NCBI RefSeq assembly: GCF_000376945.1
Contig: NZ_AQXU01000025.1
Span: 1-64,000 of the forward strand
DNA from: Leeia oryzae DSM 17879
Lineage (GTDB): Bacteria > Pseudomonadota > Gammaproteobacteria > Burkholderiales > Leeiaceae
DNA: 64,000 bases
Direction: 5' to 3'
The notes under the pieces were generated by a model. The model saw nothing but the letters and a program-made list of their open reading frames with translations, was not told where the DNA came from and made no database searches. Shown here piece after piece: positions 7,509 through 29,376 of the stretch (positions are counted from its first letter, which is position 1; every line of letters begins with the position of its first letter). The position numbers and the translations under genes are program-made.

Positions 7509-8600
7509 TTAGCGACCTAGCGCTTGCTTCCACTGTTTGATGAAGTCCAGACGTTTGGCCTGATCCAGATAGGTCAACAGGCCTGGGCCGACGGCAACCG
7601 GCTTGAGTGCGGCACCCAGGACACGTCCCAGATAGTCGCCAGAAGCCTGGCCGGCGATATCTTTACGAACGGAGTACAGATCGGCAGACATGGCCAGGAT
7701 GCTTTGGCCACGACGGGACAATACATAATCCACCCACACCTTGGCGGCATTAGGCGCTTTGGCTGTTTTGGACACAAACATCAGACGAGAGATCACCAGC
7801 GAGTAGTCTGTTGGCATCACAAAGCCAATGTTCGGGTCTGTCTTGGCACGGGTAATGGCGTAAGAACCCAGAATGTTATAACCGATCAGGTTCTCGCCGG
7901 AGGAAATACGCTCCATCATGCCGCCGGTGGAAGATTGCAGTTTGACATCCACCGCACCAAATGCCTTGGCCAGATTCCAGAAGGCGGGGTTTACTTTGGC
8001 ATCCTGGGTGACAAACAGGAAGCCGGTACCGGATTTCTCGATATCGTAAGTGGTAACCTTGCCTTTGTACTTGGCGGTATTTTTGGTCAGCAGGGTGACC
8101 AGCTCTGCGTGGGTTTTTGGCACTTCGCCGGCAGGAACCAGGCGCTTGTTGTACACGATGGAGATCGGCTCGTAGGTAGTACCGAACACTTCATCACGCC
8201 AGTGGGCCCAGTCTGGCAGGTTCTTCACTTCTGGCGTAGCGTATTTCATGGCATAGCCATCGTTCACCAGCTTTGCCTGCAAGTCCATGGCAGAGCTCCA
8301 CAGAACGTCTGCAGATGCGCCGCCAGCGGCCGTTTCACTGATGTAACGGTTATACAATTCAGTAGAGTTCACATCGTTGTATTCCAGCTTGATCGCTGGA
8401 TACATTTTCTGGAAATCTTTTAGCAGGGGTTGCATCAGGGCGGTATCGGTCGTCGAATACACCACCAGCTTGCCTTCTTTGTTGGCAGCATCAATCACAG
8501 CCTGATAGCTGGCAGGGTAGCCAGCGGGCACAGCGGCAAACGCTTGTGCAAATGGAAGAGCGGCCAGTACAGCCAGCATAACGCGACGTTGCTTATTCAT
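7509..8600 (-). CDS. Periplasmic substrate-binding protein of ABC importer
   Basis: This 363-residue protein has a signal peptide of about 22 residues (MNKQRRVMLAVLAALPFAQA). The mature part begins with the VYSTTD strand typical of the FbpA/AfuA-like solute-binding family (family 1). The ATG at 8598-8600 is preceded by GGAGA at the right distance; an upstream in-frame start at 8708 would bury the signal peptide and is rejected. It is the first gene of the operon, divergent from a TctDE-like two-component system that probably controls it. I see no clear iron-ligand Tyr-Tyr pair, so an organic anion, phosphonate or sugar phosphate is as likely as iron(III). Confidence 0.9.
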   Translation of the reverse strand: MNKQRRVMLAVLAALPFAQAFAAVPAGYPASYQAVIDAANKEGKLVVYSTTDTALMQPLLKDFQKMYPAIKLEYNDVNSTELYNRYISETAAGGASADVLWSSAMDLQAKLVNDGYAMKYATPEVKNLPDWAHWRDEVFGTTYEPISIVYNKRLVPAGEVPKTHAELVTLLTKNTAKYKGKVTTYDIEKSGTGFLFVTQDAKVNPAFWNLAKAFGAVDVKLQSSTGGMMERISSGENLIGYNILGSYAITRAKTDPNIGFVMPTDYSLVISRLMFVSKTAKAPNAAKVWVDYVLSRRGQSILAMSADLYSVRKDIAGQASGDYLGRVLGAALKPVAVGPGLLTYLDQAKRLDFIKQWKQALGR

Positions 8601-8744
8601 CTTCGTGTCTCCAATATCTACGTTTGTAATAATTATCTGGCCTAACCATTTTTTGCAGACAATCGTCAGGCAGTGATGGCATGATAAAAAAGACAAGCTT
8701 TCAATCACCTTTCATTGATATTGTTTTTTTGCAAGGTTACCGAT

Positions 8745-9419
8745 ATGCGTTTACTGCTGGTTGAAGATAATCTGGAATTGGCCGAATCATTACGCAGGGC
8801 ACTGACGGCAGCCAGCTTTGCGGTAGATGTGGTACACGACGGGCTGGCGGCAGACCAGGCACTGCATCGGGATGACTATGCGCTGCTGGTTCTGGATTTA
8901 TCGCTACCCAAATTATCTGGCTGGGATGTCTTGCAACGCCTGCGCAAACGCGGCAGCAGCCTGCCGGTATTGATTCTGACCGCTCACGGCAGTGTTGAAG
9001 ACAGGGTTAAAGGACTCAACCTGGGGGCGGATGATTATCTGGCCAAGCCCTTTGAACTGACAGAGCTGGAAGCACGGCTCCGGGCCCTGCTCCGCCGGGC
9101 CAATGGCGCACCTTCCGCCGATATTTGCTGTGCCAGCCTGTGCTATGACAGCAACCAGCGGCGTTTTACCCTGGCAGACCAGCCTGTCAGCCTGCCGCCA
9201 CGCGAACACGCGGTGCTGGAAGTCTTGCTGCTGAAACAGGGAAAAACCGTCAGCAAAGAAGCGCTACTGGAGCAAATTTGCAATTTTGACGACAGTGTCA
9301 GTATCGAGGCCATTGAAATCTACATCCATCGTCTGCGTAAAAAGCTGGAAGGCGCGGATGTCCAGATTGTTACCTTGCGCGGGCTAGGCTATTTGCTGGA
9401 GCAGCGGCATGACGTTTAA
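8745..9419 (+). CDS. OmpR-family response regulator (TctD/QseB-like)
   Basis: This 224-residue two-domain regulator has a receiver domain (1-115) with phosphoacceptor D51, T79 and K101, and a C-terminal winged helix (about 125-220) ending RGLGYLLE. I take the ATG at 8745 (MRLLLVEDN) because the acidic pocket begins there and AAGG lies upstream; the longer frame from 8715 adds only leader residues. The kinase gene overlaps its end by 11 nt. It is divergent from the ABC-importer operon across about 145 nt, the usual layout for a system that regulates its neighbouring transporter. Confidence 0.95.
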   Translation: MRLLLVEDNLELAESLRRALTAASFAVDVVHDGLAADQALHRDDYALLVLDLSLPKLSGWDVLQRLRKRGSSLPVLILTAHGSVEDRVKGLNLGADDYLAKPFELTELEARLRALLRRANGAPSADICCASLCYDSNQRRFTLADQPVSLPPREHAVLEVLLLKQGKTVSKEALLEQICNFDDSVSIEAIEIYIHRLRKKLEGADVQIVTLRGLGYLLEQRHDV

Positions 9420-10812
9420 GGTGGCCAAAAGCCTGCGGGCCGAATTGCTCTGGTGGCTAATGGTACCGCTGGGCATTCTGTTTGCCTTCAACAGCTGGCG
9501 CACCATTGATACCTCCAGAGAGCTGGCCAATGTCGCTTACGACAGGACATTGCAAGCCTCTGTGCGCACCATCGCCGAACGGGTCACCGTCGATCAGGAT
9601 GGAGTCCACGTGGATATCCCCGCCGCTGCGCTAGAAATGTTTGAGTCCCAGTTCCAGGACCGGGTGTACTACAGCGTACATCTGAATAACGGCAAACTGC
9701 TCACCGGCTACGACCAGCTGCCCCAACCCGACCGCTTGCATCAACCCGGGCTGGACCGCATTGTCTTCTTTGATGCGCGCTATAAAGGTGAAGACGTGCG
9801 GTTTGCCATCTATAGCCGGCCACTGTTTGAGCAGGACAATCGGTTGAGTGCCATTGTACAGGTGGGGGAAACCCTGTCATCCCGCCAGGCGCTGGCCAGG
9901 CAGATTGTCTGGGATGCCATGCGGGATCAGTTGTGGATGATGGCGCTGGCCGCCATTTTTGTAGTGATTGGCATTCAGCGGGGGCTAAGACCATTGCTGA
10001 CACTGAGGGATAAGATCCAGCGCAGGGATGAAGGCGAGCTATACCCGTTTAATGTCCAGAAGGTGCAAACCGAACTGCAACCACTCGTGGTCAGCCTGAA
10101 CCAGAACATGCAACGCTTGCAGGAAGAACTGGACGCCCGACAGCGGTTTATTGCGGACGCATCGCACCAGCTACGCACCCCCCTTACCCTGTTAAATACC
10201 CAGGCAGAGCTGGCCTTGCGTGCCCAGGAACCTGCGGCCATGCATGCAGCGCTGATAGAGCTGCATCACAGCACCCGCCAGACCGTCCGGCTGGCCAACC
10301 AGCTGCTTTCCCTGTCACGCGCAGAGCCTGACAGCGTCAGACAATTGGCCTTTGAACCCATGGACCTGACAGATTTTGCCCGGTCCCTGACCGCCGAATT
10401 TGCACCTGCGGCGAGAAGCAAGCAAATTGATCTGGGATTCGAAGGCGAAGACGCCTGTTACATTTCGGGCAATACCCTGCTGCTGCATGAACTGATATCC
10501 AACCTGCTGGACAATGCCATTCATTACACTCCGGCAAATGGCATTGTCACCATTCGGGTAGAAGCACAGCATGCCGACATCTATCTGACCGTGAGTGATA
10601 GCGGCCCCGGCATTCCACGGTCAGAGCGATTGCGGGTCTTCGAGCGGTTTTACCGTATTCTGGGCACCAAAGAATCCGGCTGTGGCCTTGGATTGGCCAT
10701 CGTCAAGGAATGTGCTCAGGCCCACGAGGCTGTCGTCAGCCTGAGTGATGCAGAAGAAGGCGGGCTGAAAGTCACCGTTCGCTTTCCGCCTTCCCCGCAC
10801 CGGCATTTCTAG
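9409..10812 (+). CDS. Sensor histidine kinase (TctE-like)
   Basis: This 467-residue membrane kinase has TM1 at about 13-30, a periplasmic 2CSK_N-like sensor (31-170) and TM2 at about 175-192. The HisKA box FIADASHQLRTPLTLL carries phospho-His253. The ATPase domain has N-box NLLDNAIHY (about 365-373), G1 DSGPGIP (397-403) and G2 GCGLGLA (424-430). The ATG has GGAG 7 nt upstream, within the regulator gene, and overlaps it by 11 nt. The N-terminal domain type is that of TctE, which senses tricarboxylates, but the ligand here is unknown. The 3' end overlaps the converging gene at 10809 by 4 nt. Confidence 0.95.
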   Translation: MTFKVAKSLRAELLWWLMVPLGILFAFNSWRTIDTSRELANVAYDRTLQASVRTIAERVTVDQDGVHVDIPAAALEMFESQFQDRVYYSVHLNNGKLLTGYDQLPQPDRLHQPGLDRIVFFDARYKGEDVRFAIYSRPLFEQDNRLSAIVQVGETLSSRQALARQIVWDAMRDQLWMMALAAIFVVIGIQRGLRPLLTLRDKIQRRDEGELYPFNVQKVQTELQPLVVSLNQNMQRLQEELDARQRFIADASHQLRTPLTLLNTQAELALRAQEPAAMHAALIELHHSTRQTVRLANQLLSLSRAEPDSVRQLAFEPMDLTDFARSLTAEFAPAARSKQIDLGFEGEDACYISGNTLLLHELISNLLDNAIHYTPANGIVTIRVEAQHADIYLTVSDSGPGIPRSERLRVFERFYRILGTKESGCGLGLAIVKECAQAHEAVVSLSDAEEGGLKVTVRFPPSPHRHF

Positions 10813-11705
10813 TTAGCCGTTTTTGACAGTTCAGCCACGGCCTTTTGCATCATGCTATTGACGGCCATGGCAAATTTTGGCGACAGCGCCGACCAGTACT
10901 CGAGATTCTTGTGACTCTCGCCGGAGGGTACGCTCAACGCATCGGGTTTCATCGACAACCACAGCAGTGGCTGATCCCCATTGCCAAATCCCTGCCCTTT
11001 ACCCAGACACTTGAGAGACAGCTCGATCACCCGCATCGTCTTGCGGTCATTCACCACCTTCACCGACCAGGCCAACGTGACCGGCACACCGGCCAGTTCC
11101 CGGACTTTTGGTGATACCTCACTGTCAGAGATATCAAACATGCCCGGGCTGCGATATTTATAGCCCAGCACCGGCACTTGCTGATAGCCAAAGTAATAAT
11201 CCGGCTTGAAAAGCCCGCCTTTGACATTCTCGGTATCGGTAGTAAGCGCGACTTCCCCTTTCACCTTGCCATAAAAAGGGGCACTGGTCACGGTGTCCGG
11301 CGGTACCAGTTCCAGTTTGTTTTGCTGTACAGCCCCTACCACTGCCGTGGCGATATCCGCCGCGATGGCCTTGGCCATGTCAGCAGACAAATGATCTTCT
11401 ACCGGTTCCCGACTGGCAAAATCCACCCCGCTACCCGCCCCCATCAAGGTAAACGCCCCTGCCAGCAAGCCGGACGTTACTTTGCTGTCGGTATGCCCTT
11501 CCCCGCTCAGGAGCGTCAGCCGTTCCAGATGCACCCCAAGTTTGACATTCAGTCCGCTGATGGCCACCTTGGTCACCGGCAGAATATCTTTGGCGTACTT
11601 CAGCACATTGTTCTTTTCTTCGATCGGGAAAGGATCATCTGCCGCCTGGCTTAGCCAAGGGGTCAGCGTCAGTACACCCACGGTCATCATGCGTTTCCAG
11701 CACAT
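10809..11705 (-). CDS. Exported protein of unknown function
   Basis: This 298-residue protein has a plausible signal peptide (MCWKRMMTVGVLTLTPWLSQA, cleavage near 21-22). The SD GGGAGA precedes the first ATG. The mature part starts ADDPFPIEEKNN. It has an Ala/Gly-rich segment around residues 85-120 and otherwise mixed alpha/beta character, without membrane helices or cofactor motifs. I do not recognise a family. It converges on the sensor kinase gene with a 4-nt overlap and is divergent from cysG, so it appears to be a single-gene unit. A periplasmic location is inferred only from the signal peptide. Confidence 0.75.
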   Translation of the reverse strand: MCWKRMMTVGVLTLTPWLSQAADDPFPIEEKNNVLKYAKDILPVTKVAISGLNVKLGVHLERLTLLSGEGHTDSKVTSGLLAGAFTLMGAGSGVDFASREPVEDHLSADMAKAIAADIATAVVGAVQQNKLELVPPDTVTSAPFYGKVKGEVALTTDTENVKGGLFKPDYYFGYQQVPVLGYKYRSPGMFDISDSEVSPKVRELAGVPVTLAWSVKVVNDRKTMRVIELSLKCLGKGQGFGNGDQPLLWLSMKPDALSVPSGESHKNLEYWSALSPKFAMAVNSMMQKAVAELSKTAN

Positions 11706-11901
11706 CCTGTTCTCCCTGCGTCATTCGATGATTTTTTCATCATAATTCAGGCAGAAGGGTGTGACCATGCCATGAAGCGGCAGAATGCACACGGCTTAAC
11801 AACGATTTACAATTGGGAAACCGCAATATTTCAACCGTTGCTTCTGGCAAGCTGGTTTAAAATAAGATTTTCTCTGCCGCCCTACCCAACTGGAACCTGT
11901 C

Positions 11902-13296
11902 ATGGATTACTTCCCCATTTTTCTGAATTTGAAACAGCAACATTGCCTGGTGGTAGGCGGGGGAGAAGTTGCATTACGCAAGGCCAGCCTGCTCGCCCAG
12001 GCACAGGCGATTGTCACGCTGGTGTCGCCCGAGCTGCATCCGGACCTGCAAGCGCAAGTCGACGCAGGTGCCATGCACTACATTGCCGGCGAGTTTGCGC
12101 CTGAGCATCTCACTGGCAAACGGGTGGTCATTGCCGCCACGGATGACAAAGCCGTCAACCGGCAGGTTTATGAACTGGCAGAGCAGCTGGGTATCCCGGT
12201 CAATGTGGTGGACCAGCCCGACCTGTGCCGTTTCATCATGCCGGCCATCGTAGACCGTTCTCCCTTGGTGATTGCCATTTCCACATCAGGCGGCGTACCG
12301 GTGCTGGCTCGCCAGCTAAGAACCAAACTCGAAAGCCTGATCCCGCATGGCTACGGCGTGCTGGCCAAGCTGGCCAGCGAATTCCGCCACAAGGCCAAGC
12401 AGAAGCTGCCAGACGTAGGTACCCGTCGCCTGTTCTGGGAAGAAGCCCTGCAAGGGACAGTGGCCGAGAAGGTATTTGCCGGCAAAGTGGAAGAAGCCCG
12501 CCAGGATCTGGACCATCAGCTAGAGACAGCCGACATCGCGCGTTTGCAGCAAGGCGCGGTATACCTGGTAGGTGGAGGCCCTGGCAACCCGGACTTGCTC
12601 ACCTTCCGTGCCTTGCGGCTGATGCAGCTGGCCGATGTGGTGCTATACGACAACCTGATTGCCCCGGCGATTCTGGACCTGGTCCGCCGTGATGCAGAGC
12701 GGATTTATGTGGGCAAGAAAACCAATAACCACGCCCTGCCACAAGACGATATCAACCAGCTGCTGGTCAAACTGGCCAAAGAAGGCAAGAAAGTGCTGCG
12801 GCTCAAAGGAGGCGACCCGTTCATTTTCGGTCGCGGCGGTGAAGAAATCGAAACTCTGGCCGAAGAAGGCATTCCGTTTGAAGTGGTACCCGGCATTACC
12901 TCTGCCTCCGGCGCCTCCTGCTTTGCGGGCATCCCGCTGACGCACCGGGATTATGCCCAGGCCTGTACATTTGTCACCGGCCATCGCCGAGCAGGCGAAA
13001 CCGAGCTGGACTGGCCGCGGCTGGTACAAGCCAATGAAACAGTGGTGGTGTATATGGGCGTGGGTCAGGCCAAAGAGATTTGCCAGCAGCTGATCCAGCA
13101 TGGCCGTGCCGCAGAGACACCGGTCGCCATTGTAGAACAGGCGACTACGGCACAGCAGCGGGTCGTGGTCGGCACGCTGTCTACCCTGCCCGACAAGATC
13201 ATCGAGGCAGGGGTCAAATCTCCCGCGCTGATCATCATCGGGGAAGTAGTCAAACTGCACGCCAAGCTCGCGTGGCACACCAAGCCAGCAGGCTGA
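11902..13296 (+). CDS. cysG: Siroheme synthase, trifunctional
   Basis: CysG makes siroheme for sulfite or nitrite reductase from uroporphyrinogen III: two SAM methylations, NAD-dependent dehydrogenation to sirohydrochlorin and iron chelation. The 464 residues match the usual length. The N-terminal dehydrogenase/chelatase module (1-205) has the Rossmann motif VVGGGEVALRK (17-27) and D104. The C-terminal SUMT module (about 217-460) has VGGGPGNPDLLT (223-234), YDNL, RLKGGDPFIFGRGGEE and VPGITSASG. It stands alone, ending at a strong terminator. No cys or nir genes are adjacent. Confidence 0.97.
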   Translation: MDYFPIFLNLKQQHCLVVGGGEVALRKASLLAQAQAIVTLVSPELHPDLQAQVDAGAMHYIAGEFAPEHLTGKRVVIAATDDKAVNRQVYELAEQLGIPVNVVDQPDLCRFIMPAIVDRSPLVIAISTSGGVPVLARQLRTKLESLIPHGYGVLAKLASEFRHKAKQKLPDVGTRRLFWEEALQGTVAEKVFAGKVEEARQDLDHQLETADIARLQQGAVYLVGGGPGNPDLLTFRALRLMQLADVVLYDNLIAPAILDLVRRDAERIYVGKKTNNHALPQDDINQLLVKLAKEGKKVLRLKGGDPFIFGRGGEEIETLAEEGIPFEVVPGITSASGASCFAGIPLTHRDYAQACTFVTGHRRAGETELDWPRLVQANETVVVYMGVGQAKEICQQLIQHGRAAETPVAIVEQATTAQQRVVVGTLSTLPDKIIEAGVKSPALIIIGEVVKLHAKLAWHTKPAG

Positions 13297-13301
13297 TGTG
13301 A

Positions 13302-13337
13302 AAAAGCCGATGCCACCATCGTGGAGCATCGGCTTTT
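13302..13337. terminator. Bidirectional terminator between cysG and the MCP gene
   Basis: A 12-bp perfect stem (AAAAGCCGATGC / GCATCGGCTTTT) provides T-runs on both strands, serving the two converging genes. Confidence 0.88.
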
Positions 13338-22342: not shown

Positions 22343-23938
22343 TCAGCCCAGAATTTTCTGCGCCGCCTGATATCCCCACCAGGAAGCCTCTTCGAATAGC
22401 GACAGGCCAGACAGGTCCGAATGCGCAAACAGGAGACGTCCATCCTGCTTGCGCAAGGCAGCCAGCCCCGCATTGTGCAAGAAGCCCACTGCCGGCGTCG
22501 CCATCGCGTGTCCACGTACCGTGATCTCAGCATACTGCGCATGTCGCCATAAGCGCGGACGACCATACACCTCATCCAGGTCTACCATGGCGGCATCAAA
22601 CAAATCGGCAGGTTTTGCAGCCAGCAACCACTTTCTGGCGGCATCGGGCGAGAATTGCGGCAAGTTACGGTAGGCGGTAAAGACCGTCCGTTCAGGCATG
22701 GCCTCCCGAATCCACTGATGGGTTGCCACCACATAACCCAAACCGTCGCTGCCTGCGCGCACATTATCCCAGGCCAAAGGCTCCCCATCCTTCTCTGGCG
22801 GAAATCCCTGCAGGACCAGATTGGTCACCAGCCATGGTGCGTGTGGAGGCATCTGCTGAGGCACGTCAAATCCGTAATCGGACAGGGAGACCAGATGCTT
22901 CAGCACATGCAGCGGCATGGCACAAATCACGCGTCTGGCGGCAATCGTCATTCGTGTTTTACCGGCAAGCACATCCACTGTGACATTATGCTGGCCTTCC
23001 TGAATGCGGATGGCACTGCCGGCCATTACATTAGCAGCTGGCAGCCGGTTGTACATCCACTGCGTTAACCGGCCCAGACCCTCTGGCCAGGTCAGCAATC
23101 CGCCATCGGCCCCATTGCTTGCATGGCCATCCCGGCAGGCAAAGTAATGCAACCCGGCCCAGGCAGACACGTGCGTACACCCCGCTCCATAATCATCCCG
23201 GCAGGCATAATCGAGATACGCCCTCAGCGCGCTATCCGTGTAACCTTGCTGATCCAGCCAACGGGAGAACGGCATCATGTCGAGACGTCGCCAGTCATCG
23301 TCCTGTGACGACAGCACCAGCGGAATATCAAAAAGGCGCAAACCGTCCGACCCCTTTTGCGTTTTCAGCTGCTCCACCCACCGGAAAAACCTGGCTTGCT
23401 GCCGGGCAGATTCACTATGGGCGGCGACCGGGGCAATGACCCCGGGGGACCATTTGCCGTCAGCCCAGATACGCTCATCGGGCGCGTGCAAAATGGCCGC
23501 TTCATCATAATAGGGATGGCTCTCATGCTCGCCGGAAACCAATACCCCCATGTCGGCCAATAGCTCTCGCACATGGGTAGAGGAACGGGTCGGGAAAGGC
23601 AGATAATGCGCGCCCTTTGGGTAGCGCAAGCCACGACCGGCATCCCCGTAGGCGGTATTCCCTAATGGCTCCGGACCGCTTAGCAGCAGGTAATTTCTGT
23701 AATCATGCTTTTGCAACTGCCATGCAGCTGTCAGACCCGCAACGCCACTCCCCAGAATCAAGGTATCGACGTCACGATGTTCCGTTGCAGCAGGCCATGC
23801 ATGCGCATCCCTGAGCTGATGCCCTAGCGCCATACCCGGCATGTCTACCCGGACCGGAATCTCCAGCCCCGGGAACGCATGACAGGCACTCACCCCTGCA
23901 GCCGTCGCACCCAGTAGCAGAAACTGGCGACGGTCCAT
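22343..23938 (-). CDS. Exported FAD-dependent amine oxidase-like protein
   Basis: This 531-residue flavoprotein begins with a twin-arginine-like leader (MDRRQFLLLGATAAGVSAC) whose Cys19 sits in a lipobox-like context. It may thus be a Tat-exported lipoprotein. The dinucleotide-binding GSGVAG lies at 63-68 in LILGSGVAGLTAAWQL, as in flavin amine oxidase/phytoene desaturase-type enzymes, and a GRLLFAHSDLSG segment near the C-terminus fits the second FAD contact. Its ATG shares one base with the stop of the upstream aminopropyltransferase-like gene (TGATG), so the two are translationally coupled. That pairing suggests oxidation of an amine or polyamine product, which is inference only. Confidence 0.82.
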   Translation of the reverse strand: MDRRQFLLLGATAAGVSACHAFPGLEIPVRVDMPGMALGHQLRDAHAWPAATEHRDVDTLILGSGVAGLTAAWQLQKHDYRNYLLLSGPEPLGNTAYGDAGRGLRYPKGAHYLPFPTRSSTHVRELLADMGVLVSGEHESHPYYDEAAILHAPDERIWADGKWSPGVIAPVAAHSESARQQARFFRWVEQLKTQKGSDGLRLFDIPLVLSSQDDDWRRLDMMPFSRWLDQQGYTDSALRAYLDYACRDDYGAGCTHVSAWAGLHYFACRDGHASNGADGGLLTWPEGLGRLTQWMYNRLPAANVMAGSAIRIQEGQHNVTVDVLAGKTRMTIAARRVICAMPLHVLKHLVSLSDYGFDVPQQMPPHAPWLVTNLVLQGFPPEKDGEPLAWDNVRAGSDGLGYVVATHQWIREAMPERTVFTAYRNLPQFSPDAARKWLLAAKPADLFDAAMVDLDEVYGRPRLWRHAQYAEITVRGHAMATPAVGFLHNAGLAALRKQDGRLLFAHSDLSGLSLFEEASWWGYQAAQKILG

Positions 23939-25449
23939 CAGCGGGATACCTCATGCCAGTCCTGCTCGAAATAATGCACCAGCGACTGGTTGTCCAGCCG
24001 GTTGGGTTCCATTTTCAGGGGCGACATATCTGCAGGGAACCGGAACATGCGCCGGGTTTCATCGTCATCCAGGTATTTCAGCGGGATGGGGTACTTCGCC
24101 GGCGGGGTAAAGTCTTTGGTCTTGCCTGCCAGAATAAATCCCCACTCCCCGAACGACGGCACATACGTATGGTAGGGCCAAGTGTTGAAGCCGGCCTCTT
24201 TCAGCGTGGCATCGATGCACCAGAAAGAACGAGGGGCAAAATACGGTGAGGTCGACTGCACCACCAGACGGCCATGTTCGGCCAGATGGTGTGACATCAA
24301 CCGGAACATCGGCACAGAATACAGTTTGCCCAGACCAAAATTCGACGGGTCCGGAAAATCCACCACGATGGCATCAAACATGCGCGAATGCTGTTCCAGC
24401 CACTGGCCGGCATCTTCATTGACGACCGTCACCCGCGGGTTACGCAGCGATCCTTTGTTGAGCGCCGTCAGTCGGGGGGACGTACTGAACAGCTGGGTCA
24501 TCGCCGGGTCCAGATCCACCAGCGCAATGTGTTCGATCTGCGGGTACTTCAGCAGTTCACGTACAGCCAGACCATCCCCGCCCCCCAGCACCAGCACCTG
24601 TCTCGCCCATGGCAGGCTGGTCAGCAACGGGTGCACCAGTGCCTCGTGATAACGGTGTTCGTCTTTGCTGGAAAACTGCAGGTTACCATTGATGTATAGC
24701 CGCAGGTCATCCTTCCATTGCGTCACCACCAGCCGCTGGTAAGGCGTGGTGGTCGAATACACCACTTCGTCGCCAAACAGGCCGTGTTCCGACCAATGGG
24801 TAATCCGGTCAGCGTACAGAAAAGCCGCCAGCAGACCGCCCAGAATGACCCCGCCTTTGACCAGACGGGCCGTAGACGCCGCAATGTGCTGCCGGTACAA
24901 ATGGGTCGTCCATAATGCGACCGCCACATTGCACATGCCAAACAGCAAACCGGTCCGGATCATCCCCAGTTGCGGCGCCAGCACCAGCGGGAACAACAGC
25001 GATACGGCCAGCGCCCCCAGATAATCAAAGGTCAGTACCTTGCTGACCAGATCCCGCAGCGCCATCTGCTGCCGGTCCAGCACCCGCATGACCAGTGGAA
25101 TCTCCATCCCGACACACACGCCGATCAGAAACACCAGCGCATACAACACCGAGCGGAACGGCGCGGACAGCCAGGCAAACACCACAAACAGCAAGGCGGC
25201 CGAGATCCCGCCCAGCAAGCCCACCAGCAACTCGATATCGACAAACCGGGTGAGCGCATCTTCGTCACGGATATATTTGGAGAAATGGGAGCCCACCCCC
25301 ATGGCAAACAGGTAACAACCGATAATGCTGGAAAACTGCAACAGGGAATCGCCCAGCAGATAGCTCGACAAGGCCCCGGCAATCAGCTCGTAAGCCAAGC
25401 CGCATGACGCCACCACAAACACCGAAAACACCAGCAACCGGTCCACCAT
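23938..25449 (-). CDS. Membrane-fused spermidine synthase-like protein
   Basis: The N-terminal part (residues 1-210) has about seven hydrophobic helices. The C-terminal part is a class I SAM/decarboxylated-SAM fold of the polyamine aminopropyltransferase family: LVLGGGDGLAVREL, then LVDLDPAM and the catalytic-position Asp in VVDFPDPSNFGLGKLYS. In E. coli SpeE this Asp activates the amine acceptor. I place the start at the ATG at 25447-25449 (GGGA 7 nt upstream, and homologues begin near here). A longer frame opens with TTG at 25542 without SD. Divergent across about 180 nt is the DUF350-SPFH-DUF4178 operon; downstream is a coupled flavin oxidase. No speD or speE proper is adjacent, so a non-canonical acceptor is likely. 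Confidence 0.85.
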   Translation of the reverse strand: MVDRLLVFSVFVVASCGLAYELIAGALSSYLLGDSLLQFSSIIGCYLFAMGVGSHFSKYIRDEDALTRFVDIELLVGLLGGISAALLFVVFAWLSAPFRSVLYALVFLIGVCVGMEIPLVMRVLDRQQMALRDLVSKVLTFDYLGALAVSLLFPLVLAPQLGMIRTGLLFGMCNVAVALWTTHLYRQHIAASTARLVKGGVILGGLLAAFLYADRITHWSEHGLFGDEVVYSTTTPYQRLVVTQWKDDLRLYINGNLQFSSKDEHRYHEALVHPLLTSLPWARQVLVLGGGDGLAVRELLKYPQIEHIALVDLDPAMTQLFSTSPRLTALNKGSLRNPRVTVVNEDAGQWLEQHSRMFDAIVVDFPDPSNFGLGKLYSVPMFRLMSHHLAEHGRLVVQSTSPYFAPRSFWCIDATLKEAGFNTWPYHTYVPSFGEWGFILAGKTKDFTPPAKYPIPLKYLDDDETRRMFRFPADMSPLKMEPNRLDNQSLVHYFEQDWHEVSR

Positions 25450-25630
25450 GACACATCCCGTCAGCGCTCTGATCAACAGGCTCAGAGGGTAGCCGAAAAT
25501 CCGCAGCAATGACACGGCTTTCTGCGAGTTTTCATCGGCCAATACGCCAACAGCATGCAGACTTTGCCAAAAACCCCATAAGCGACTAGGATGTCACCTT
25601 ATAAGCCACCCATTTACAAGAGGCATACAG

Positions 25631-26026
25631 ATGATGCACCTGGAAGGTTTCTACAGTTATCTGCTGTATCTGCTGAGCGGTTTTGCGCTGCTGGCCGCGT
25701 TTGTGGTGATCTATACCAAAGTCACCCCGATTGACGAAATCGACATGATCTGCAAGGGCAAGGCATCCGCCGCCCTCTCCTTTGGCGGTGCCTTTCTCGG
25801 CTTCTCGCTGACACTGGCCTCCAGCGTACTGCACAGCAACACTTATTATCTGTTTCTGGTCTGGGGCATCATCGCCATGCTGGTCCAGTTACTGACTTAC
25901 GTCATCATCAGCCGGCTGATCCCTTCGCTCAACACAGAGCTGGACAACAACAACGTGGCCATGGGCGGGCTGGCGGGCACTATTTCGCTCACGGTCGGCA
26001 TCCTGAATGCCGCTTGTCTGTCCTGA
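25631..26026 (+). CDS. DUF350 (YjfL-like) membrane protein
   Basis: This 131-residue protein has four predicted helices (about 8-29, 47-65, 72-95, 108-128), the size and topology of DUF350/YjfL. It lacks a signal peptide. AAGAGG precedes tandem ATG codons (25631, 25634). It is the first gene of a four-gene unit; its stop is 40 nt before the SPFH start. In other bacteria DUF350 genes occur beside PspA-like, SPFH, DUF4178 and spermidine/glutathionylspermidine synthase-like genes, and the same company is seen here. The biochemical role is unknown. Confidence 0.85.
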   Translation: MMHLEGFYSYLLYLLSGFALLAAFVVIYTKVTPIDEIDMICKGKASAALSFGGAFLGFSLTLASSVLHSNTYYLFLVWGIIAMLVQLLTYVIISRLIPSLNTELDNNNVAMGGLAGTISLTVGILNAACLS

Positions 26027-26066
26027 ATTCAAGTCGGATCTCAACCAATATAGTCTGGAGTTAAAC

Positions 26067-27092
26067 ATGGGACTCGGTTCGTTTATCAAGAAGCAGTTTA
26101 TCGATATCCTGCAATGGACAGAGGATACCGACGGTGTACTGGCGTGGCGCCATCCGATGGAAGACTTCGAAATCCAGTACGGTGCCAGCCTGACAGTGCG
26201 CGAATCGCAAATGGCCGTCTTTGTCGATGAAGGCAAGATTGCCGATGTCTTCGGCCCGGGTACGCACAAGCTCACAACCCAGACCCTGCCCGTTCTCACC
26301 TACCTGAAAAACTGGGACAAGCTGTTCGAATCCCCCTTCAAGTCAGACGTGTACTTCTTCAGTACCCGGCTGCAATTGGGTCGCAAATGGGGTACCCCGC
26401 AACCCGTCACCATCCGTGATCAGGATTTCGGCATGGTGCGTCTGCGCGCATTCGGCATGTATTCTTACAAGCTGGCGGATGTCAAAAAATTCCATACCGA
26501 AATCAGTGGCACCCGCGACCAATACACGCGTGACGAGCTGGAACAGCAACTCAGGAATCTGGTGGTTTCTACCCTGACCACCACCCTGGGCAGTGGTGCA
26601 GTTCCGTTCCTGGACATGGCCGGCAACCAGCTGGAAGCCGGCAATCAGGTCAAGGCCGCACTGGTATCCGTCTTTGACCAGTACGGTCTGGCGCTAGACA
26701 ACTTTGCCATCGAAAACATCTCCCTGCCGGAAGAACTGCAAAAAGCCATTGATACCCGCATTTCCATGGGCATGATTGGCAATATGGGTACCTATACCCA
26801 ATATCAGACCGCACAGGCCATTCCACTGGCCGCCCAGAATGAAGGTGGTCTTGCAGGCATGGGCGCGGGTCTGGGAGCCGGCCTGCAAATTGGCCAGGTC
26901 ATGGCACAAGCCCTGCAGCCCGGACAAGCCGCGCCCCAGGCAGCAGCACCGGCAGCCCCGGCTGCGCCACCGGTGGCGGACGAAAACGAAGCCCGCTTGC
27001 TCAAGCTAAAAGGCATGCTCGACAAAGGCTTGATAACCCAGGCAGACTTTGACACCGCCAAAGCAGAAATTATCAAAAAGATGATCGGTTAA
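26067..27092 (+). CDS. SPFH/Band-7 protein with C-terminal SHOCT motif
   Basis: This 341-residue protein belongs to the virion-core/YdjI-like SPFH group. The SPFH body spans about 30-240 (LTVRESQMAVFVDEGKIADVFGPGTHKL at its start; long helices follow). An Ala/Pro-rich linker covers about 270-300. The C-terminal LKGMLDKGLITQADFDTAKAEI (about 313-335) is a SHOCT-type short oligomerisation motif. No membrane helix is seen, so it probably binds the membrane peripherally as an oligomer. The start at 26067 is chosen for GGAG 6 nt upstream. It lies between DUF350 and DUF4178 genes with small gaps, consistent with one operon and an assembly at the inner membrane. Confidence 0.88.
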   Translation: MGLGSFIKKQFIDILQWTEDTDGVLAWRHPMEDFEIQYGASLTVRESQMAVFVDEGKIADVFGPGTHKLTTQTLPVLTYLKNWDKLFESPFKSDVYFFSTRLQLGRKWGTPQPVTIRDQDFGMVRLRAFGMYSYKLADVKKFHTEISGTRDQYTRDELEQQLRNLVVSTLTTTLGSGAVPFLDMAGNQLEAGNQVKAALVSVFDQYGLALDNFAIENISLPEELQKAIDTRISMGMIGNMGTYTQYQTAQAIPLAAQNEGGLAGMGAGLGAGLQIGQVMAQALQPGQAAPQAAAPAAPAAPPVADENEARLLKLKGMLDKGLITQADFDTAKAEIIKKMIG

Positions 27093-27098
27093 GTCCCC

Positions 27099-28565
27099 AT
27101 GTTCCAGACTGCTTGCCCATCGTGTGGCGCCAATGTCAGCTTCCGTTCGGCAACCTCTGCCATGGCGGTATGCGAATACTGCCATAGCACCCTGTTGCGG
27201 GAGGCCGATGCCGTACGCGATGCCGGCAAGATGTCTGCCATCATCGAGGACTACTCCCCTATTCAGATTACCGCGTGCGGCATGTGTGCCGGGCAGGCCT
27301 TCCAGGTGATTGGCCGCATCCAGCTGCGTTATGAGGACGGGTTCTGGAACGAATGGTATATCTGGCTGGATGATGGCAAAACCGGATGGCTATCCGACGC
27401 CAGCGGCCAGTACGTGGTCAGCTTTCAGGATGGCATCGCAGAAGAAGCACAAGCGTTTGCAGAGCTGGTTCCAGGCAGCACCTATCTCTACAAAGACAAT
27501 GTCTACTTTGCCTCGGATGTCCGTACCGCCCGTTGCGTCGCCGGCGAAGGAGAACTTCCCTTTCAGGTCGGCCAAGGCTGGGAGGCCAAGGTAGCCGATT
27601 TCCGGACCGGCACCCAGTTCCTGACGCTGGACTATTCTGAGCAAACACCGCCAGAACGCTTTACCGGCAAGGCCTACACGCTGGACGAGCTCAAGATGGA
27701 ACGCCTGCGGGATGACAGCCTGATTCTGGAAAAGGCCGGCAAGATCAAAGGTAAAACCACCTCCCTGGCCTGTCCGAGCTGTGGCTCAACGCTCAGTTAT
27801 CAGGCCGGTGCTGCGTTTCATCTTGTCTGCCCGGGTTGCAGCAGCGAAATCGACTGCTCCACCGATCAGGCACTGGTGCTGGAAAAGCATACCCAGCAAA
27901 GCAATGTCACCAGCACGCTCAAACTGGGAGACGTCGCGAAAATTCAGGGAGTGGAATGGCAGCTTATCGGCCAGATGAAATGCCAGGAACCCGACCCCGA
28001 AGAACCCTCCACCTGGTGGGAGTATCTGCTGTATCACCCCAACAAAGGCTTCATGTGGCTGATCGAGACCGATGAGGGCTGGGAACAGGTGCGTGTACTA
28101 GATAACTGGCCAACGCGCATCAGTGGCAACCAGATGCCCTATCAGAACACCACCTTTACCCATTTGTACGACTACCCCTCCAAAGTCATTTATGCGGCAG
28201 GTGCCTTTAACTGGCGTGTAAAGGTGGGCGACCAGACCCGTATTTCCGACTACCAGAAAGGTGACCAGAAACTGACGCTGGAAACCAGTGCATCCGAACT
28301 GAACTGGAGTATGGCCAAAAAAGTCCCGGCCCAAACCGTAGGCGAATGGTTTGGCAAACCGTTAGCTGCGCCAGAGAAGTCATCCGGCAGCACAAGCTCA
28401 ATCTCGGGCTCCCCGCTGTTTGGCATTGCCAAGACGATCACCTGGGTTTTTATCGGGGTCAACCTGGCGGTATGGGAATCGTATGATGGCAGTCTGATGG
28501 TGATCGTGGCAGGATTGGTTTTACTGTGGCTACCGGTATTGGTCAGCCTTGGACGGGATAAATAA
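27099..28565 (+). CDS. DUF4178 protein with two zinc ribbons
   Basis: This 488-residue protein has two similar halves. A zinc ribbon (C6, C9, C25, C28) is followed by a DUF4178-like beta-rich domain (about 52-190). A second ribbon (C225, C228, C244, C247, CPSCGSTLSY) is followed by a second DUF4178-like domain (about 268-405). The C-terminus (about 435-480) is hydrophobic, with one or two membrane helices. The ATG is 6 nt after the SPFH stop, so co-translation is likely. The DUF4178 function is unknown. The duplicated ribbon-DUF4178 architecture plus membrane anchor suggests a cytoplasmic sensor or adaptor for the SPFH partner. Confidence 0.85.
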   Translation: MFQTACPSCGANVSFRSATSAMAVCEYCHSTLLREADAVRDAGKMSAIIEDYSPIQITACGMCAGQAFQVIGRIQLRYEDGFWNEWYIWLDDGKTGWLSDASGQYVVSFQDGIAEEAQAFAELVPGSTYLYKDNVYFASDVRTARCVAGEGELPFQVGQGWEAKVADFRTGTQFLTLDYSEQTPPERFTGKAYTLDELKMERLRDDSLILEKAGKIKGKTTSLACPSCGSTLSYQAGAAFHLVCPGCSSEIDCSTDQALVLEKHTQQSNVTSTLKLGDVAKIQGVEWQLIGQMKCQEPDPEEPSTWWEYLLYHPNKGFMWLIETDEGWEQVRVLDNWPTRISGNQMPYQNTTFTHLYDYPSKVIYAAGAFNWRVKVGDQTRISDYQKGDQKLTLETSASELNWSMAKKVPAQTVGEWFGKPLAAPEKSSGSTSSISGSPLFGIAKTITWVFIGVNLAVWESYDGSLMVIVAGLVLLWLPVLVSLGRDK

Positions 28566-28569
28566 CACC

Positions 28570-28737
28570 ATGCCAAAACTCGTTTATGTCGTCTACGCCC
28601 TCATCATCACCATCGGCAGCACGGCGATCAACATGCAGGAAGATACCTCGGCCACCGGCAAGTCCAGCCGAAGCTGGAGCGGCAGCAATCGCGGCCTGTC
28701 AGGTGGCAACTGGTACTCCGGCGGTAATCACAAATAA
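28570..28737 (+). CDS. Small membrane-tethered Gly/Ser-rich protein
   Basis: This 55-residue protein has one N-terminal hydrophobic segment (VYVVYALIITIGSTAI, about 5-20). A polar tail rich in Ser, Gly, Asn and Trp ends GGNWYSGGNHK. The ATG lies 4 nt after the DUF4178 stop, with GGGA some 13 nt upstream, so translation may depend on the upstream gene. No catalytic motif is seen. The segment could be an uncleaved anchor or a signal peptide. It closes the DUF350-SPFH-DUF4178 unit and is kept in the annotation because of the tight spacing. Confidence 0.65.
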   Translation: MPKLVYVVYALIITIGSTAINMQEDTSATGKSSRSWSGSNRGLSGGNWYSGGNHK

Positions 28738-28764: not shown

Positions 28765-29376
28765 TTAGCGGGCAGTCAGTGCCTTTTGCAGCCATAGCAG
28801 CTGGTCTGGCAGCAAAGCCTCCAGGTCCAGATTCATGCCAGACATCATGCCGGTATGACGGCTCATCAGTAGACCATGCAGGCTGTTGAATAGAAACACC
28901 AGTCGGGAGGACAGCGCATCTGGTGCCAGCACAATGCCTTCCTTGGCCAAAGACACTCGGACAATACGTCTTGCCTGCGCCAGCGCACGCAACATCTGCA
29001 CTTGCAGTGCAAACCCCAGCGGTGCGAGCGCGGTCTGGCGGAATGACTGATACCAGAGCGGCTTTTGCATCACCAGGGCATACAGATTAAAACGGGAGAG
29101 CGCAAAGCTCATATAGTCGCTCAGCAGCACCGGCAGTTGGTCGCCCGCGTGTGCAGACAACACTTCATTGAGCTCCCGATAAAACCGGGTACACACCAGC
29201 AGCAGCACCTCGTCTTTGCTTTCAAAGCACTTGTACACATTGCCCACCGACATATCCAGCCGCTTGGCCAGATTGATCATGGTCAATGCATCACTATCTG
29301 CTTCCAGCAAAATGGCAAACGCTGCTTCGGCAATATTTTGCCGGAACAACGCCATATTTCTCTTTGGTCGAACCAT
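28765..29376 (-). CDS. TetR/AcrR-family transcriptional regulator
   Basis: This 203-residue regulator has an N-terminal helix-turn-helix (about 25-55: MINLAKRLDMSVGNVYKCFESKDEV) and an all-helical C-terminal ligand/dimer domain. Two starts are possible. The ATG at 29376 (MVRPKRN) gives the usual basic leader; the ATG at 29355 has the better SD (AAAGAGA). It converges on the DUF350-DUF4178 operon, separated by 27 nt that include a small inverted repeat (28747-28765). It is divergent from plsY across 189 nt. The targets are unknown. Confidence 0.88.
   Translation of the reverse strand: MVRPKRNMALFRQNIAEAAFAILLEADSDALTMINLAKRLDMSVGNVYKCFESKDEVLLLVCTRFYRELNEVLSAHAGDQLPVLLSDYMSFALSRFNLYALVMQKPLWYQSFRQTALAPLGFALQVQMLRALAQARRIVRVSLAKEGIVLAPDALSSRLVFLFNSLHGLLMSRHTGMMSGMNLDLEALLPDQLLWLQKALTAR

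Follow-up and report, generated by a model that had tools for sequence, protein, structure and literature searches.

Operons that combine a synthase carrying a seven-transmembrane domain with DUF350 and DUF4178 proteins have been described (mSystems 2024, PMC11237479), and the main text of that work includes a variant with a band-7/SHOCT protein in place of the CesT/Tir-PspA dyad, accompanied by an S-adenosylmethionine (AdoMet) decarboxylase and a polyamine oxidase. The same text mentions "aminopropylation of other substrates", citing Li 2019. Escherichia coli YjfC and YgiC are peptide-spermidine ligases according to their RefSeq names, with Pederick 2023 given as the reference in PMC12568646. 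Here we analysed a six-gene locus at positions 22,343-28,737 of a 64,000-nucleotide stretch of the Leeia oryzae DSM 17879 genome (hereafter the window), which belongs to an operon type already known in outline from the 2024 account, including its PspA-less band-7/SHOCT variant. The locus is an intact example of a conserved membrane module that lacks PspA and has at its centre a membrane-fused aminopropyltransferase (mSpeE), which is joined by a flavoprotein of the amine-oxidase superfamily (AmOx), a DUF350 protein, an SPFH protein, a DUF4178 protein and a 55-residue Gly/Ser-rich protein (the tail). We tentatively propose, with a likelihood somewhat short of even, that the module aminopropylates the C-terminal lysine of the tail, mSpeE transferring the group from decarboxylated AdoMet.

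The association of the genes was assessed in one and the same sample of 300 genomes from the order of the window organism, with mSpeE called above the curated cut-off (NF002956/PRK03612, 472 bits) and DUF350 at E up to 0.001. At the thresholds used, mSpeE and DUF4178 occupy the identical 47 genomes, and neither is found in the other 253. SpeD is encoded in 46 of the 47 genomes versus 58 of the 253 others, and DUF350 in 46 of the 47 versus 32 of the 253. The sole member of the 47 without SpeD and DUF350 (G158; L, G and C numbers are our identifiers for loci, genomes and contigs) is a 680-contig draft in which the contig with DUF4178 ends inside the DUF4178 gene. DUF4178 and mSpeE lie within 10 kb of each other in 40 of the 47 genomes; the other 7 have the two genes at a greater distance or on different contigs, and the co-occurrence is thus not mere linkage. 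Fisher tests on this sample yield p-values that are too small owing to the relatedness of the genomes; the exact match of the two 47-genome lists is independent of them. Across 383 genomes sampled from the whole phylum, DUF4178 is present in 25 (24 above the cut-off), all of which also encode mSpeE, and 18 further genomes have mSpeE without a DUF4178 match; at least one of these 18 (L192) possesses a divergent DUF4178 that falls short of the cut-off (E 0.0028).

Gene order was compared by scanning a 27-row DUF4178 alignment over genome contigs, which yielded at least 535 relatives, the best 80 of which were used as named loci. Among these best 80 loci, DUF4178 is present in 80, a tail ending in His-Lys (HK) in 79, DUF350 in 77, SPFH in 77, mSpeE in 75, SpeD in 74 and AmOx in 73. 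The divergent order AmOx-mSpeE / DUF350-SPFH-DUF4178-tail-SpeD is exact in 55 of them, an arrangement far beyond chance, and the loci include Zoogloea, Achromobacter, Cupriavidus, Ralstonia, Chromobacterium, Janthinobacterium, Duganella and Massilia. Many genomes of the order have a second arrangement, not always complete, that runs SPFH, DUF4178, tail, half-length DUF350, mSpeE, AmOx and SpeD, for which Novosphingobium sp. ES2-1 provides an annotated example. The half-length DUF350 protein of this second order, of about 70 residues with two helices, is encoded just 5' of mSpeE (L043-L045, L049, L052, L053, L057, L059, L060 and others); L191, unlike these, has a doubled DUF350. By a strict frame-aware recount, AmOx is present in 37 of the 47 order loci. 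Five further matches (L045, L050, L060, L065 and L080) proved to be a second reading frame of the same DNA, and the AmOx label in L214 was discounted for the same reason, as it overlaps mSpeE in another frame.

The initial annotation of this DNA had regarded the genes as one polyamine-related, membrane-bound and PspA-less unit, which both co-occurrence and gene order support, and had named rare co-occurrence of the six genes as evidence that would speak against it; in the neighbourhood and genome surveys rare co-occurrence is clearly not the case. It had further suggested that an SPFH platform, together with a zinc-ribbon adaptor, uses or senses a polyamine-like product, perhaps when the envelope is stressed. 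The gene association is compatible with such a sensor, and PMC11237479 proposes that extracellular stress sensing is linked with membrane dynamics, yet we found no direct support for it, and the tail and SpeD would be left unexplained, which makes it a quite improbable account of the module.

The tail turned out to be the most informative part of the locus. In the best 80 loci, we took the most Ser/Gly-rich open reading frame (ORF) with a stop 100-420 bases past DUF4178, ignoring its ending. This rule picked a tail in 79 loci, and all 79 end in His-Lys; in L130, counted as the one miss of 80, no HK-ended frame follows DUF4178. The codons of the two residues vary (CAC 66 and CAT 13; AAG 43 and AAA 36), indicating selection on the protein end rather than on the DNA. 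The body of the tail drifts while the terminal HK stays, and many tails from loci of the second arrangement are not rich in Ser and Gly and still end in YHK, SHK, HHK or FHK. Within the order, the HK rule is satisfied at 44 of 46 loci (38 separate tails and 6 fused to DUF4178), against a background of 14 in 8,274 random windows; G158, whose contig stops within DUF4178, was left out of this count. The two misses were resolved, since in L083 the tail lies about 1.6 kb downstream and in G077 beside a distant speD (L227), so that an HK-ended tail is encoded in all 46 evaluable genomes. Natural HK-ended fusions of DUF4178 and tail were seen in L048 (8442-9950), L084 (8198-9865), L047, L051, L062, L078, L217 and L226. 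All 79 tails of the named loci contain a hydrophobic segment, with a charge of +1.13 before and +0.35 after it, an asymmetry that weakly suggests that the tail portion lies outside. Neither the 55-residue protein nor any of six tails scanned matches a Pfam or NCBIfam family. The small Gly/Ser-rich protein, which the initial annotation had correctly listed without assigning it a role, is a core part of the module; the annotation had recognised the true unit but set its interest in the wrong part.

Lysine-ended partners are also found in other mSpeE systems. We took 36 phylum-sample loci from beyond the order, 35 of which contain mSpeE, and a Lys-ended protein is encoded near mSpeE in 32 of these 35, a count obtained mostly through a filter for K-ended, G/S/R/N-rich ORFs. 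The endings are diverse and comprise THK, DUF4178-fused GHK or AHK, GRIK or GRVK, RGGK or HGGK, GSGK and RSGK, with lipoprotein partners ending in RRGK, SRGK or FGGK. One lipoprotein-type operon (L192) has DUF2170, PspA and a weak DUF4178 and resembles the PspA operon type presented in the main text of PMC11237479. Among 10 plasmid records found with mSpeE, all five examined encode a Lys-ended tail, namely those of Novosphingobium, Ensifer, Tritonibacter, Burkholderia stagnalis and Gemmatirosa, the last from another phylum.

Peptide-spermidine ligases provide a contrast. The ligase set consisted of the two E. coli loci and 10 loci out of 138 plasmid records; one of the 12 (L238) has no visible partner ORF, leaving 11 evaluable. 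The partner ends in Gly-Gly in 8 of the 11 (YjfM, YgiB and those of Klebsiella, Rhizobium, Pseudomonas, Paracoccus, Deinococcus and Methylobacterium) and in lysine in none, compared with 32 of 35 for mSpeE (Fisher p = 3e-8, relatedness ignored). DUF350 is also encoded in the E. coli yjf, Rhizobium and Pseudomonas ligase loci, so the terminal residue follows the enzyme and not DUF350. The window genome itself has no match to the GSP_synth-type (glutathionylspermidine-synthetase-type) ligase family PF03738. This contrast bears on whether the C-terminal lysine, as His-Lys in the window, might instead be an end that DUF350, SPFH or DUF4178 reads for recognition, sorting or metal binding while polyamine synthesis runs in parallel. 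The strictly C-terminal position and the DUF4178-tail fusions in 6 of 46 order loci would fit such an end, but the lysine is kept in mSpeE loci where neither SPFH nor AmOx is matched and DUF4178 is either missing or divergent, and in DUF350 operons with a ligase the ending is Gly-Gly and so tracks the enzyme. We therefore rate a recognition end as improbable.

The enzyme has the conserved residues and the modelled fold of an aminopropyltransferase. The window protein matches NF002956 over its full length (694 bits versus the curated cut-off of 472), and an AlphaFold2 model (predicted local distance difference test score, pLDDT, 83.6) combines seven long membrane helices with a SpeE domain, in agreement with the initial description of a membrane-fused aminopropyltransferase-like protein. 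Compared with known structures, the model reached template modelling scores by target length of 0.69-0.81 in the 50 listed matches, and VIA gave a Z of 35.2 with a root-mean-square deviation of 2.7 over 276 residues to 1uir_A. Residues D323, D395, D398, Q289, Y298, H299 and E300 are invariant in two mSpeE alignments (24 rows in A2, 30 rows in A4), and the key residues of the GGGDG, DxPDP, NLQF and YHE motifs, aligned to 1uir, are kept in every aligned row. In aminopropyltransferases, the acidic residues for decarboxylated AdoMet and the amine lie in the GGGDG and DxxDP motifs, and a Q/YHE motif is conserved as well. The window mSpeE is the one strong SpeE-family match in its genome; a further match is weak (24.9 bits).

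The same fold and residues, and the NCBIfam name polyamine aminopropyltransferase, would also suit an enzyme whose product is a free polyamine (spermidine or a related compound), made at the membrane to protect the envelope or to be exported, with the tail binding or positioning the product and the tail lysine unmodified. PMC11237479 lists monitoring of polyamine concentration as an option in its main text, and Pseudomonas aeruginosa PA4773/PA4774 is a second speD/speE pair that makes an unusual polyamine (PMC11107197). Free-polyamine synthesis leaves unexplained the invariant C-terminal lysine of otherwise loosely constrained tails and the glycine ends beside ligases; we judge it unlikely, though a serious contender.

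The side chain of lysine is similar to the butylamine end of putrescine, which is the usual acceptor, and addition of an aminopropyl group to it gives a spermidine skeleton. Under the proposed aminopropylation, SpeD, which is encoded on contig C24 here and usually at the operon end in the named relatives, would make decarboxylated AdoMet, from which mSpeE would add an aminopropyl group to the very C-terminal lysine of the tail encoded at 28570-28737. This would yield N-epsilon-(3-aminopropyl)lysine, a protein end bearing the spermidine skeleton, which the flexible Ser/Gly tail would keep at the surface of the membrane. The DUF350, SPFH/SHOCT and zinc-ribbon DUF4178 proteins may form a membrane platform around this charged tail, and the Tat-exported (twin-arginine translocation) flavoprotein may have the product or the tail as its periplasmic substrate. 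Extended to the family, mSpeE enzymes may generally be protein-lysine aminopropyltransferases that, with SpeD, give the C-terminal lysine of a small anchored tail a spermidine-like group, the modified end lying outside the cytoplasm. Such enzymes would occur in several bacterial classes and at least two phyla, YjfC/YgiC reaching a similar spermidine-capped tail by other chemistry. We put forward this generalisation as possible but below an even chance, and there is still a substantial probability that free polyamines are the sole substrates of mSpeE and that the lysine serves another purpose.

Several points weigh against tail aminopropylation. The weakest point is topology. By the positive-inside rule, loop charges favour a cytoplasmic N-terminus of mSpeE in every row (30 of 30 and 24 of 24). 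With seven helices, this predicts that the catalytic domain lies on the non-cytoplasmic side, where one would not expect decarboxylated AdoMet; the substrate would then have to be exported, possibly through the membrane domain, unless the number of helices has been misjudged. The predicted location is the same side as that of the lipoprotein tails and Tat-exported AmOx. Next, three of the 35 mSpeE loci beyond the order have no nearby tail (L203, L204 and L207). Because of the K-ending filter, and because the HK-ended ORFs in L195, L201, L203, L208 and L211 look like chance, two checks blind to the ending were made. In blind clustering of 1,491 ORFs, one of the 21 clusters present in at least 6 loci was Lys-ended in every member, and this was the lipoprotein (13 of 13), compared with a baseline of 126 Lys-ended ORFs among the 1,491. 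The second blind rule, which took from the region upstream of mSpeE the short membrane ORF richest in Ser and Gly (32 of these loci and 4 plasmid loci), gave lysine in 18 of 36 picks; 14 of the 18 non-Lys picks are the DUF350 protein end in loci with a lipoprotein tail farther upstream (DUF350 confirmed for L191). Moreover, tail families are related within lineages and the counts are not independent events, and 3 of the 11 ligase partners are not Gly-ended (GGS in Nonomuraea, SGS in Pseudarthrobacter and IHA in Sphingomonas). The terminal lysine could also be conserved for another reason. Finally, no lysine column of AmOx is conserved at 60% or more in an alignment of 32 rows.

Canonical flavin amine oxidases have a catalytic lysine near flavin N5. 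In AmOx, the stretch that resembles the canonical lysine strand, matched by eye, has Asn in 28 of 32 rows, and the lack of a conserved lysine makes canonical amine oxidase chemistry doubtful. The initial designation as an amine oxidase accordingly holds at the superfamily level (PF01593, 1.8e-9) and no further; matches to PDB sequences are weak (best 2.3e-6) and fall mostly in the flavin adenine dinucleotide-binding region. The twin arginine is invariant (32 of 32 rows), with Phe and Leu two and three places on in 30 and 31 of 32, which makes Tat export likely, and a Cys stands at a possible lipobox in 14 of 32. A clear AmOx gene is present in L215, L222 and L226 and none in L191-L213, its absence from many mSpeE loci marking it as accessory. 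The probable export of AmOx and probable periplasmic position of the tail would allow AmOx to oxidise the terminal lysine as a periplasmic lysyl oxidase, with mSpeE only supplying the amine; however, 20 of the 23 mSpeE loci in L191-L213 keep a Lys-ended protein without an AmOx match, and AmOx lacks the conserved lysine of the canonical enzymes, so that a lysyl oxidase is very improbable.

Within the window, all six ORFs were recovered in two divergent units with the strands, overlaps and domains of the initial description (Table 1), with one correction to the overlaps. The mSpeE and AmOx genes are coupled through TGATG. The SPFH ORF opens at 26007, and comparison with L011 places its likely start at 26067, with which the overlap between DUF350 and SPFH probably vanishes. 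The mSpeE ORF opens with TTG at 25542, and its homologues favour the ATG at 25449, giving 503 residues. A promoter and terminator scan of the gap between the divergent units returned one promoter-like site versus 0.4 expected. Paired-Cys zinc-ribbon motifs stand ahead of each DUF4178 stretch, and C6, C9, C25, C28, C225, C228, C244 and C247 are invariant in alignments A1 and A5. The AlphaFold2 model of this protein (pLDDT 80.6) had no convincing match by Foldseek or VIA (best Z 4.4 over 60 residues), and the SPFH protein had no match among PDB sequences at 0.001. The tail gene is closely followed by an oppositely oriented TetR-type regulator gene (28765-29376), and L011 has an ORF similar to it in size, place and N-terminus.

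Table 1. Genes of the module in the window, with the matches that identify them.
Feature	Coordinates	Strand	Match or remark
AmOx, probably Tat-exported flavoprotein, amine-oxidase superfamily	22343..23938	-	PF01593 1.8e-9, cut-off passed
mSpeE, 7 membrane helices and aminopropyltransferase domain	23938..25449	-	NF002956 694 bits
DUF350 (YjfL family), four-helix membrane protein	25631..26026	+	PF03994 7.6e-33; four hydrophobic segments
SPFH/Band_7_1 with C-terminal SHOCT	26067..27092	+	PF13421 1.3e-75; SHOCT 2.5e-6, 27.5 bits, cut-off 27
Duplicated zinc-ribbon and DUF4178, two C-terminal membrane helices	27099..28565	+	PF13785, two stretches, 3e-28
Tail protein, 55 residues, Gly/Ser-rich, one membrane helix, C-terminus ...SGGNHK-stop	28570..28737	+	Proposed aminopropyl acceptor

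The speD slot of the window operon is empty, whereas a genome of the same genus (G001, L010) keeps speD there. The initial remark that speD is missing is true of the locus and not of the genome, in which speD sits on another contig (C24) and adjoins a second DUF4178 protein with a signal-peptide-like start. In this locus (L009; G000:C24:291500-311000, about 8233-9224 and 9221-13318), speD follows that single DUF4178 protein and faces an opposite-strand protein of 1,365 residues that, judged by eye, resembles a Pls-type non-ribosomal peptide synthetase with adenylation, carrier, membrane and hexapeptide-repeat parts. In another genome of the genus (L228; G002:C1:137000-148000), speD is outside the operon, at a distance of about 1 kb from a soluble speE-like match. 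The reported absence of PspA extends to the whole window genome, which has no PF04012 match. Thus, the PspA-less set of mSpeE, DUF350, band-7/SHOCT, oxidase and speD is present in this organism, all but speD in the window.

Aminopropylation of the tail would give a concrete candidate for what the widespread mSpeE enzymes and their SpeD genes modify, and an unannotated small "hypothetical protein" would become a key part of the system. If true, a familiar enzyme fold would perform a new modification of proteins, and the unexplained membrane operons of the mSpeE and YjfC types would share one idea, a flexible surface tail with a polyamine cap. The proposed modification corresponds to +57.06 Da on the tail and is testable by one mass measurement. 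As far as our literature searches reach, the C-terminal lysine partner, the 47/47 coupling and the Lys/Gly contrast have not been described before; nothing closer on DUF4178 or on lysine or protein aminopropylation was found in the literature searched, from which subscription journals were mostly absent.

Li and colleagues reportedly found in 2019 that SpeD co-occurs with membrane-spermidine synthase fusions in bacteria without spermidine, leaving the acceptor open; the present analysis differs in proposing a candidate. The operons of mSystems 2024 (PMC11237479) share with the window the protein families, their linkage and the 7TM-fused synthase, but its sections on these operons name no C-terminal-Lys tail or acceptor, and "lysine" occurs 0 times in the main text. 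The P. aeruginosa speD2/speE2 pair (PA4773/PA4774) is similar in combining an extra class 1b SpeD with a SpeE paralogue; this paralogue, as described in PMC11107197, differs in being a 349-residue thermospermine synthase that works on free polyamines. In E. coli yjfIJKLMC and ygiBC, as here, a secreted tail protein (DUF1190) is encoded beside a polyamine-attaching enzyme, together with DUF350 (yjfL) in yjf; there, however, an ATP-grasp-type ligase joins whole spermidine to a peptide, and the tails end in Gly-Gly, whereas that of the window ends in lysine.

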